A stretch of 64,000 nt of DNA from Pseudohongiella nitratireducens. GTDB taxonomy: Bacteria; Pseudomonadota; Gammaproteobacteria; Pseudomonadales; Pseudohongiellaceae. The translations under genes and the position numbers were made by a program. This document shows positions 39,399-42,219 of the stretch, in pieces. Below the pieces are notes generated by a model. That model ran no database searches. It was not told the DNA's origin and was given only the letters and a program-made list of their open reading frames with translations. The stretch spans positions 62,001-126,000 of the forward strand of contig NZ_LWHM01000026.1 in the NCBI RefSeq assembly GCF_001642735.1. Reading direction: 5' to 3'. Each line of letters opens with the position of its first letter. Position 1 is the first letter of the stretch.

Positions 39399-40277
39399 TC
39401 AAATCCGCATCGGCTGAGGTCGCGGTGCAGTTACAGCTGGGCGGCTGACAGCAGGGCGCACACGCTGCATCGGCGGCAATTCCGGCCGTTGAATCCGCTC
39501 AGGCAGCTGTTCACGGGTTTGCTCCCGTTCATCTGAGGAGTCTGTTCCATTTGCCAGGTTGATGGCATCAATGACGGGGATCGAGTCGTCATCAGTGGCA
39601 GGGCGCCTGCTATCATCAGCCGCTTCAGCTTGTTCCTGTTCCTTTGTGGCATCCTGTGCAGCTTCACTGCGGGCCAGTTGTTCCAGTGAATAACGCTGGA
39701 TTTCTGCCTGGGGCAGGGAGTCGGTATCAGGCACGGTCAGATGGATTTCCAGAGTACTGTCTTCAACAGGTGTCTCGCCAGAGTCTGCCGTCTGCAATTG
39801 TTTGCGCTCGTATAGCGGCAGGTGACTGTCTGATGCCGGATCCAGAATGTGCAGTGTGTCGCCATTCTCTGGGTTGTGCTGTTTCAGCGGGTCAACCAGT
39901 GGCGTCTGCTGCAGTTCAATCAAAGGCTGCATTTCTTCAGGAATTTCGGCTGTTTCAGTTTCCCTTGGCATCCAGGAGGCGCCGGGGACATTGCCCATGG
40001 GGTCAATGGTCTCATCGCTGAGATCGGAGTCTTCCTGCTCTCTTTCTTCACCGCTATCACCAAGGAAGGGTGAAGGGCCACCAGTACCGCCAAAACCACT
40101 GTCGTTGAAGGGGCCATTTTTACCGGTGCCGCCCATGCCACTGCCCTGATCATCACCGCCAGCGGGGCGGATAATGCCTAATGTGCTGGCAGCCAGTGCG
40201 AGTGAGCAGACAAAGAGGAACATCGCCGCTATCAGCGTCCATGGATATTGGCGTCGTATTAGGATGGCTCTAGCCAT
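39399..40277 (-). CDS. Single-pass membrane protein with GGTG motifs and acidic low-complexity domain, unknown
   Basis: From the ATG at 40277 the protein has 292 residues: a short basic start, one membrane segment (WTLIAAMFLFVCSLALAAS), two Gly motifs (GMGGTG and GFGGTG), then a long acidic, Gln/Glu/Pro-rich region and a Pro/Arg-rich end. I do not recognise a catalytic domain. The ATG at 40277 has a GGGGAAGAG site and overlaps the stop of the DUF6502 gene by 8 bases, so the two are translated together; a longer start at 40313 is less likely. It may be exported and tethered, with the acidic domain in the periplasm. Confidence 0.7.
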   Translation of the reverse strand: MARAILIRRQYPWTLIAAMFLFVCSLALAASTLGIIRPAGGDDQGSGMGGTGKNGPFNDSGFGGTGGPSPFLGDSGEEREQEDSDLSDETIDPMGNVPGASWMPRETETAEIPEEMQPLIELQQTPLVDPLKQHNPENGDTLHILDPASDSHLPLYERKQLQTADSGETPVEDSTLEIHLTVPDTDSLPQAEIQRYSLEQLARSEAAQDATKEQEQAEAADDSRRPATDDDSIPVIDAINLANGTDSSDEREQTREQLPERIQRPELPPMQRVRPAVSRPAVTAPRPQPMRI

Positions 40278-41163
40278 TCTGCTCTTCCCCGGCGTTCTGG
40301 TTATGTCGGTCATTGTAATGGAAAATACCGAAATTCATACGATATTTCGCCTTGGAATCGTCTTTGTTGTGCGTGGCGTCACGTTGCTGAAGCGCTAATG
40401 CCTGGGTGTTCATGCGGATCAGGGCCTGCATGCCGATTTCATTGGCCAACTCGCGCAACTCATCAATCGATTCAGTCGAAAGCTGATCATAATAGACACT
40501 TCGATCAAAGTGCGGCGGTTTGATCCCGAGCAGGTTTTGGGCGCCTGCCTCCATATGATCCTGGATATTCTTGCCGAAAAAGAAAACTTTCTCTTCAAAG
40601 CCTTCCTCGGGTGTGAATGCGCCAGTGTTGAGCACCACCCTTTGTTGATCGTCCTGGTGTGCAATGCCCAGCCGTAACCACTCGTCCAGTATCACTCGGG
40701 GACGAATATCCTGACGGCAGACTTCAGTTACCAGGTCTTCGAAATAGGCGGTATCACTATCTTGCGGATTTGATGAGATAGCACGTAACGGTAAGGCTCG
40801 GGGGCTGCCGTCTTCATTGCGGTACTGTGGAGAACCCATCCACCAGGCAATAACCTGGGCGCCCAGCGAGGAGGTTTTAGCGATCACAGGTTGTTCACTG
40901 TCTTCGCTACGCAGACGTTTGACATCTTTGCGGTGAACACCGGTCAGCAAGGTGATCCGGCTGTCAGACTGTCTTTTTCCGGGAACGCTGAACTCGCTGT
41001 CAGCCACTTCTACATAGAGAGACTTCAGATGGTTAATCAAAAACGGATAAGTGATCTGCTTCGATAGCATCAGGCGCACCAATGGCCTGAGGATCTTGCG
41101 AATCGCTGTGACCAGGATGCCAGAAGGCTGACCAGGGTTGTCTGGGTGCTGGGATTCACTCAT
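40270..41163 (-). CDS. DUF6502 family protein, candidate DNA-binding regulator
   Basis: The 297-residue protein resembles the DUF6502 family. The first 100 residues are helical and include a winged-helix-like stretch (NHLKSLYVEVADSEF then RITLLTGVHRKDVKRL), which could bind DNA. The rest (GSPQYRNEDGSPRALPL, DQLSTESIDELRELANEI) is conserved but uncharacterised. Its start lies seven bases after a consensus TATAAT on the minus strand, with no ribosome site, so the mRNA is probably leaderless. Two palindromes lie in the divergent promoter region; autoregulation by this protein is my inference. The family name is recalled from sequence pattern. Confidence 0.75.
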   Translation of the reverse strand: MSESQHPDNPGQPSGILVTAIRKILRPLVRLMLSKQITYPFLINHLKSLYVEVADSEFSVPGKRQSDSRITLLTGVHRKDVKRLRSEDSEQPVIAKTSSLGAQVIAWWMGSPQYRNEDGSPRALPLRAISSNPQDSDTAYFEDLVTEVCRQDIRPRVILDEWLRLGIAHQDDQQRVVLNTGAFTPEEGFEEKVFFFGKNIQDHMEAGAQNLLGIKPPHFDRSVYYDQLSTESIDELRELANEIGMQALIRMNTQALALQQRDATHNKDDSKAKYRMNFGIFHYNDRHNQNAGEEQNG

Positions 41164-41169
41164 GTTGCC

Positions 41170-41175
41170 ATTATA
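41170..41175 (-). promoter_or_regulatory. -10 element of the DUF6502 gene, placing the transcript start at its ATG
   Basis: The minus strand reads TATAAT here. Six bases then separate it from the ATG at 41163, so transcription would begin on or next to the start codon. No good -35 is present; palindrome 1 (41182-41198) covers that zone. Confidence 0.6.
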
Positions 41176-41181
41176 ACGAAG

Positions 41182-41198
41182 GTGGGAATAAATCCCAC
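41182..41198. promoter_or_regulatory. Operator-like palindrome 1 (GTGGGAATAAATCCCAC)
   Basis: This is an inverted repeat of GTGGGA/TCCCAC, 17 bp long. It lies just upstream of the -10 of the DUF6502 gene and shares its arms with palindrome 2, whose centre is 41 bp away. Confidence 0.75.
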
Positions 41199-41217
41199 AT
41201 TTATTTTGCGACTTTTA

Positions 41218-41246
41218 TTGACGTGGGAAAAATTCCCACCTATTAT
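41218..41246 (+). promoter_or_regulatory. Sigma-70 promoter of the hydrolase-fold gene with operator palindrome 2 in its spacer
   Basis: The -35 TTGACG (41218-41223) and -10 TATTAT (41241-41246) are 17 bp apart. Palindrome 2, GTGGGAAAAATTCCCAC (41223-41239), occupies that spacer almost exactly, a classic repressor position. The expected transcript start is at or one base before the ATG at 41254, so this mRNA is probably leaderless too. Confidence 0.75.
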
Positions 41247-41253
41247 TCTTGAC

Positions 41254-42219
41254 ATGCATAAGCCACCTAGCCAAATAAAACTGCCAAATGGCCATTCACT
41301 GTCCTGGGGTGAATATGGAGATCCCAAGGGTTTTCCGGTTGTCTACTTCGCTGATCTTGGCGGCACACGGCTGGAGGCGGCTTTGTTCCACGAGCAGGCC
41401 AAGGAGTGCGGGTTGCGGTTGCTGGCCATAGACCGGCCGGGGCTGGGACGAAGCGACTTTCTGGCTCTATCATCGCATTACGATATTGTGCCTGTCCTCA
41501 AACCTTTGTTGGCCCACTTGCAGATTGCTCGTTTTGCATTACTGGCACGGGGTGTCGGAGCTGGGTACGCCGCAGCGGTAGCTCATCGGATGCCTACCCA
41601 GGTCACGGCATTGAGCCTGATTTCTCCGCAAGCGGTCGATAATACCCGGGGTGGTCCGGTAATGCGCGCTACAAGAGCATTAAGCCGTTGTATGTGTCGC
41701 TTTGGTATATCTTTACGAGATACCTCTCAGCGTTCGCAGTCAGTACGATTGCAGCGCTTGCAGGATGAGTGTGGCAGTGCAGACCGGAAGATTCTGCAAC
41801 AGCCCCGTGTTATCGATGTGTTGCTGACCGATGCTGCTGAAGGCGTGCTGCACGGTAAAAAAGGGCTGAATCAGGATCTCAAACTGGCCTGGCGTGATTG
41901 GCTGGGGAGCATTGATACGCTGTCGATACCTGTCAGGCTCTGGCAGACCAGCGAAGAGGGTGGCGCCGCATTTGTCCGTTCCTTGTTAATGGGCAAAGCG
42001 GACGATCTTAAGGTCTCTCAGCTGGGAGCCAGAGGAAGCTATTACTTTGTGCGACAGGCAGGCAGCATTATGCTGGGACTGTTCCGTACCATCAAATGTA
42101 CGCAATCAGTCAGTGGTATAGCAGCTTTGTCCTCTTCAGTGTCTGCTGCGTCGGCGTCAGGAACTACGGTGGCCGCCAATACCCGCCCAGGTTCGAAAGT
42201 GCGGCTTGGCTCGGGCTAG
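41254..42219 (+). CDS. Alpha/beta-hydrolase-fold protein, apparently lacking the nucleophile
   Basis: The 321-residue protein follows the alpha/beta-hydrolase plan: GEYGDPKGFPVVYFADLGGTR, then AIDRPGLGRSD. It then has the nucleophile-elbow region FALLARGVGAGYAAAVAHRMP, and a later LSIPVRLWQTSEEG strand. In active members the elbow reads G-x-S-x-G; here the Ser position is Gly (about residue 100), so ordinary esterase chemistry is unlikely. The ATG at 41254 has no ribosome site and sits at the predicted transcript start. It is divergent from DUF6502 and shares its operator region. The C-terminal Ser/Ala-rich tail overlaps the convergent small gene by 63 bases. Confidence 0.8.
   Translation: MHKPPSQIKLPNGHSLSWGEYGDPKGFPVVYFADLGGTRLEAALFHEQAKECGLRLLAIDRPGLGRSDFLALSSHYDIVPVLKPLLAHLQIARFALLARGVGAGYAAAVAHRMPTQVTALSLISPQAVDNTRGGPVMRATRALSRCMCRFGISLRDTSQRSQSVRLQRLQDECGSADRKILQQPRVIDVLLTDAAEGVLHGKKGLNQDLKLAWRDWLGSIDTLSIPVRLWQTSEEGGAAFVRSLLMGKADDLKVSQLGARGSYYFVRQAGSIMLGLFRTIKCTQSVSGIAALSSSVSAASASGTTVAANTRPGSKVRLGSG

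Follow-up and report, generated by a model that had tools for sequence, protein, structure and literature searches.

DUF6502 proteins as a probable family of autoregulatory transcription factors with palindromic operators at their own promoters

This analysis concerns two divergent genes of Pseudohongiella nitratireducens and the short region between their start codons. They lie in a stretch of 64,000 nucleotides (nt), called the window in the following (contig NZ_LWHM01000026.1, positions 62,001 to 126,000 of the forward strand), to which coordinates refer unless a locus or contig is named. The gene on the minus strand (40270..41163) encodes a protein of 297 amino acids (aa), proposed here as an autoregulatory DNA-binding protein. 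It is a member of DUF6502 (PF20112; E=9e-36, 123.5 bits against a cut-off of 27, profile positions 4-264 of 268), described by Pfam as a family of unknown function. The proposed second regulated gene on the plus strand (41254..42219, 321 aa) encodes an alpha/beta-hydrolase-fold protein, whose Pfam matches are weak (Hydrolase_4, E=4e-4; Abhydrolase_1, E=2e-3; both below cut-off).

An earlier note on this DNA had described two 17-base-pair (bp) palindromes between these genes with centres 41 bp apart, and sequence inspection confirmed them. The candidate proximal operator, GTGGGAATAAATCCCAC, occupies 41182..41198 (centre 41190, 6-bp arms), and the candidate distal operator, GTGGGAAAAATTCCCAC, occupies 41223..41239 (centre 41231, 7-bp arms); neither is assigned to a strand. 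The promoter elements were also found as described. A minus-strand TATAAT, the -10 box of the DUF6502 promoter (41170..41175), ends 6 nt before the ATG (41163-41161), and a plus-strand TATTAT, the -10 box of the hydrolase-fold gene (41241..41246), ends 7 nt before the ATG at 41254. No Shine-Dalgarno (SD) motif could be read at either start. TATTAT is preceded by the -35 box TTGACG (41218..41223, plus strand) at a spacing of 17 nt, and the two boxes together match a promoter at 10 of 12 positions. The distal palindrome, said to fill this spacer, does sit within it and covers 16 of its 17 positions, but one base is left free and its first G is shared with TTGACG. For the DUF6502 promoter a -35 match is absent in the window and, judged by eye, in relatives as well; palindrome 1 covers about -36 to -20 of this promoter. 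It is quite likely that the 96-bp region is a control region with two operators and two promoters.

The pattern GTGGGA-N5-TCCCAC occurs twice in the window, compared with a mean of 0.01 in dinucleotide shuffles (n=100; none with two), and these palindromes are its only exact copies in the whole 3.4-Mb genome (34 contigs). With two mismatches allowed no excess was found in the window (4 matches, 2.97 expected); thus, only the exact form stands out. The same search of the whole genome gave a sole site with one mismatch (C28:119214) and 17 places with two. Since the former lies 32 nt past the 3' end of the sole open reading frame (ORF) of at least 200 aa in its 3-kb locus, it was taken as chance, and on the basis of this site a wider regulon in this genome was rejected.

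Close relatives keep the palindromes. A DUF6502 protein is present in 28 of 56 genomes near that of the window (its own included), and 27 of the 30 DUF6502 loci from these 28 genomes carry a site of the 17-bp class within 250 bp upstream, compared with 0 of 362 control tiles. Within the genus (14 loci, that of the window included) two exact GTGGGA-N5-TCCCAC sites were found at 13 loci and one at L027. The sites are kept even though the same-genus DUF6502 proteins are only about 60% identical to that of the window. Their position is also maintained: in 38 of 65 distinct loci having any strict site, one is centred 27-31 bp before the DUF6502 ATG.

The earlier note had suggested searching genomes for GTGGGAA-N3-TTCCCAC beside DUF6502 genes, and would have abandoned its proposal if the palindrome were absent near the DUF6502 genes of relatives. 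The opposite was seen. Among 390 genomes of the order, 13 exact sites occur in 11 genomes, all belonging to the 59 in which PF20112 was found, and 12 of these sites adjoin a DUF6502 gene. The only exact 17-bp site of this sample away from DUF6502 is that of L161 in genome G376 (site 1501-1517), located 13 nt upstream of a methyltransferase-like gene with a recombinase-like gene adjacent (labels by eye). Among 398 genomes sampled from the phylum, some of them re-drawn from the order, three hold the motif, namely the window's own, G759 (beside DUF6502) and G693, whose 3-kb locus is without DUF6502. A reversed-pattern control matched many genomes in both searches; it is therefore not a measure of chance, and no use was made of it as one.

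The 80 named DUF6502 loci, the best of 548 relatives, are labelled as Gamma-, Beta- and Alphaproteobacteria, as Deltaproteobacteria/Myxococcota and, in a few cases, as other groups. A strict site lies upstream of 42 of these 80, compared with 15 of 2788 control tiles, and several of the 15 adjoin conserved neighbour genes. The upstream-site counts (27/30, 42/80 and the 14/30 given below) were made without removal of duplicates, and some of the named loci are repeats of unnamed ones; for the site-position, hydrolase-promoter, -10 box, hydrolase/site and weight-matrix counts, repeated upstream sequences were removed. The loci are not independent of each other, one Nitrosomonas-type branch holding 19 tree rows. 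Several records are metagenome-assembled genomes with possibly incorrect labels; L071, for instance, carries the label Marinimicrobia but groups with Rhodospirillaceae in the tree.

The second line of evidence against absence is a weight matrix built from 20 close-relative sites (loci L011-L037). With it, 56 of 62 held-out regions upstream of DUF6502 scored higher than the 99% control level, where 0.6 were expected, and four (L072, L079, L089, L103) fell short of the 95% level. Many loci without a strict site, Nitrosomonas among them, carry degenerate forms such as GTGTGA-N5-TCCCAC. In Nitrosomonas (L067, L083, L098, L114) three related sites form an array upstream of DUF6502, with GTGTGA-N5-TCCC-type sites flanking a central GTGGG...TTCCATG on both sides and TGTCAA adjoining.

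For DUF6502 itself the proposed leaderless start stood up. Of 101 distinct rows from L011-L120, 41 have a -10 box (5 or 6 matches) placed 6-8 nt upstream of the ATG, and so do 14 of 23 distinct rows from L121-L150 (set C, in which 8 of 30 loci gave no row, being duplicates or having no start codon near the model start, and one gave two). SD-like motifs were found in 5 of the 101 and 0 of the 23 rows. When the best -10 box (5/6 or better) was taken, which 62 rows possess, it stood at other distances in 21, and the Nitrosomonas loci have longer leaders by eye. Hence, the DUF6502 mRNA of the window appears leaderless, and, as far as sequence can tell, the leaderless start is a recurrent but not a universal trait. 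In L036 an apparent 13-codon ORF, possibly a leader peptide, lies between the operator plus a TATCCT box and the DUF6502 ATG.

The hydrolase-fold gene is the divergent neighbour in 26 of 103 distinct DUF6502 loci. Strict sites are present in all 26 of these and in 39 of the 77 others; the sites are therefore independent of the hydrolase. Of the 27 loci that have both the hydrolase and the site (window included), 25 have TTGAC directly against the distal palindrome, and the -10 box at the same place is mostly TACTAT-like in relatives (by eye). This geometry supports the suggestion that the divergent arm is regulated as well. The claim of a leaderless start did not hold for this gene: among the 27 loci it is seen in the window only, where the start follows the palindrome by 14 nt without an SD motif. 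In the 26 relatives the palindrome is followed by the first in-frame start at a distance of 20-358 nt, this start being preceded by an SD-like motif in 18 of them, and a conserved leaderless hydrolase start was rejected; the nearest relative in this respect is L047 (20 nt, no SD-like motif). The nucleophile-elbow (GxSxG) Ser was found in none of 30 aligned rows of the hydrolase family (22 Gly, 4 Asp, 4 Ala; slot assigned by eye, some rows near-duplicates, and 2 of 32 rows gapped at this column). With this residue absent from all aligned rows, the divergent gene may encode an alpha/beta-hydrolase-fold protein that is catalytically dead and remains under the control of DUF6502.

A tree of 129 DUF6502 proteins, from which identical or short proteins were dropped, splits in two with a support of 100 on either side. 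Clade I (99 rows) holds 74 rows labelled with the 17-bp site and 25 without a label, and clade II (30 rows) holds 20 labelled with an 18-bp form and 10 without. The labels (17 bp: G[TC]G[GT]GA-N5-TCCC or GGGA-N5-TCCC within 300 bp; 18 bp: TTTGGG-N8-CCCAAA-like within 60 bp) were written after the sites had been seen and are exclusive, the 17-bp label being applied first. Three clade I loci have an 18-bp-spaced palindrome far upstream (L030 and L053 at -141, L052 at -271) and also carry a 17-bp site. The 18-bp form was found upstream of 14 of 30 loci, compared with 0 of 365 control tiles. A search of the 390 genomes with the 18-bp pattern gave 13 sites in 13 genomes, 12 of them beside DUF6502; as the pattern was chosen after set C had been seen, only the previously unfetched loci of G138, G373, G309 and G078 are an independent check, and three of these four sites adjoin DUF6502. 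Two genomes, G055 (L036/L039) and G040 (L034/L040), contain one gene of each clade, and each gene has the site of its own clade. This pairing of paralogues and sites is the strongest argument that DUF6502 itself binds. Very probably, the palindromes are docking sites of DUF6502 regulators, and versions of them stand before the DUF6502 gene in numerous bacteria that are only distantly related.

The AlphaFold model of the window's protein (mean predicted local distance difference test score 84.6) is in agreement with DNA binding. It contains predicted helix-turn-helix (HTH) helices at 66-73/77-85 and a winged-helix arrangement at 140-177 (numbering without the initiator Met). In a comparison with PDB structures, residues ~37-93 match mainly HTHs of sigma, TrpR and DeoR type, and residues ~94-185 match IclR winged helices. 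Two HTH-type domains are thus predicted; the winged helix, placed at the N-terminus by the earlier note, is the second of them, and the N-terminal one is an HTH. The predicted fold supports the proposal of a DNA-binding protein, and DUF6502 combines, as would be expected of an operator-binding transcription factor, an HTH-type fold (predicted) with a conserved site at its own promoter. By sequence, Pfam HTH models do not match the N-terminus, the IclR Pfam model does not match the protein, and NCBIfam holds no family for it at E 0.01. A search of PDB sequences for a solved relative gave one match (E 0.089), which was not used. The matches to IclR-family regulators concern the predicted winged helix, and the additional N-terminal HTH domain is a difference from that family. 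Cyanobacterial HetR, which according to database entry titles binds a 21-bp palindrome, superimposes with a root-mean-square deviation of about 11 Å at 11-14% identity; therefore, only a common arrangement is claimed.

We consider it likely that DUF6502 binds GTGGGAA-N3-TTCCCAC and that it represses both promoters, by negative autoregulation and by control of the divergent gene. The mechanism that we infer includes binding, dimer formation, the points where transcription starts, the sign of control and an inducer. The protein would bind the palindrome, probably in dimeric form. On the distal palindrome its place would be the spacer of the hydrolase-fold promoter, between the -35 and -10 boxes, and on the proximal one it would cover -36 to -20 of its own promoter, with the transcript starting at or next to the ATG. 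Both promoters would most likely be repressed because RNA polymerase is blocked, so that DUF6502 would negatively regulate its own gene together with the one behind it, until some signal releases the repression. Repression is deduced from geometry, since sites in the spacer, at -36 to -20 and, in clade II, over the -10 box are usual for repressors.

Operators of autoregulated repressors of the TetR/TetA type lie in back-to-back intergenic regions. The DUF6502 system resembles them in the divergent arrangement of regulator and target and in palindromic operators over both promoters. It differs in that its own mRNA appears leaderless and its operator sequence is its own; no match to these families was found in Pfam, NCBIfam or PDB sequences. 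The literature searched gave no mention of DUF6502, PF20112 or the operator motif strings, whereas DUF5666 is named in 4 papers; searches on Pseudohongiella regulators and on leaderless divergent promoters listed nothing on a DUF6502/palindrome system. Autoregulated palindrome-binding regulators are a known kind, but the DUF6502 family, its operator and the two operator lengths appear to be undescribed within this literature. DUF6502 probably is a new family of autoregulatory transcription factors, acting as repressors. Somewhat less firmly, we favor the fuller description of a previously unrecognised family with an N-terminal HTH and a winged helix, whose two lineages would use 17- and 18-bp operators with the same GGGA/TCCC-type half-sites, one of them enclosing the -10 box of a leaderless promoter, and which would locally control exported and outer-membrane proteins (DUF5666/GGTG, outer-membrane-type, TPR), together with a catalytically dead hydrolase-fold protein in some lineages. 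A family without assigned function would thereby become a testable regulator family in several bacterial classes, for which the DNA code, the mechanism at the promoter and the local regulon are predicted. The two operator clades, which some genomes combine, are a natural experiment on the co-evolution of regulator and operator spacing, and the recurrent leaderless, operator-covered promoters a tidy system for leaderless expression in Proteobacteria.

Among the alternatives, activation survives best: DUF6502 might bind but activate, or activate its own promoter while repressing the other. The DUF6502 promoter of the window has a good -10 box and lacks a -35 box (relatives lack it too, as judged by eye), which leaves room for this. 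However, the sites lie within -36 to -20 in clade I, and in 13 of 23 set C rows the operator spans a -10 box located 7 nt ahead of the ATG; these are usual repressor positions, and the latter arrangement favors repression. Furthermore, the hydrolase promoter is near consensus with its 17-bp spacer. We therefore regard activation as unlikely, though to be kept in mind.

A separate, unlinked transcription factor could instead bind the palindromes and control DUF6502 and its neighbours, DUF6502 not being the binder. In its favor, binding by DUF6502 is deduced, and the N-terminus lacks a Pfam HTH match. Such a factor, however, would need to be inherited together with DUF6502 across classes, to switch site length with the DUF6502 clade and to use different sites at the two paralogues within G055 and G040, and the exact 17-bp motif occurs in none of the DUF6502-free genomes of the order sample. 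This makes a third factor improbable.

Both palindromes were flagged as terminator-like by a scan and have T-rich tails, as would suit RNA hairpins, terminators or attenuators. Yet they lie upstream of the transcript starts deduced for both genes, they accompany DUF6502 starts, and they keep their place with respect to the promoter boxes among relatives, so that a role in RNA is highly improbable. A dispersed repeat or chance, for which the A+T-rich centres and the two-mismatch count in the window might speak, has a vanishing probability and was rejected, as the exact pattern has two copies in the genome against 0.01 expected in the window, is associated with DUF6502 in the order sample, passed the held-out matrix test and is conserved where the proteins are 40-63% identical.

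Repression by DUF6502 would also reach the gene behind it. In the window this gene (39399..40313, minus strand) overlaps the 3' end of the DUF6502 gene and encodes a GSGMGGTG protein with a hydrophobic N-terminal stretch (by eye); the two are likely in the same operon. Across 140 loci the gene downstream of DUF6502 falls in a DUF5666-type cluster in 73 and in the window's GGTG-type cluster in 36, and nearby genes belong to an outer-membrane-type cluster in 69 loci and to the hydrolase-fold cluster in 32. These counts are not de-duplicated and are lower bounds (sets A and C, with about 1.5 kb of flank), and the clusters were built by chaining, with names resting on single representatives. The genes of the window belong to these clusters. 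Between its outer-membrane-type protein and that of L053 the identity is 40%, and its GGTG protein shows weak direct similarity to the L053 member (25%, E 0.016).

Some relatives have additional sites, placed in intergenic regions that border outer-membrane-type, TPR/barrel or lipoprotein-like genes (the last label by eye). At L047, L052, L053 and L055 such operators are located ~3 kb downstream of the DUF6502 start and adjoin an outer-membrane-type gene; in L047, L053 and L055 they precede a TPR/barrel-type gene, which in L047 is followed by a FecR-domain gene. The downstream operators hint at a local envelope regulon.

Neighbouring sites are spaced by 31-41, 52-53, 58, 62-67, 71, 80, 90-94 or 156 bp. 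Helical phasing was considered, but by eye no single phase fits, and looping is therefore not claimed. In L019, L020 and L028 the 93-94 bp between the operators contain a common palindrome, GTGATC-N2-GATCAC (one change in L028), whose GTGA-N6-TCAC form resembles CRP-type sites.
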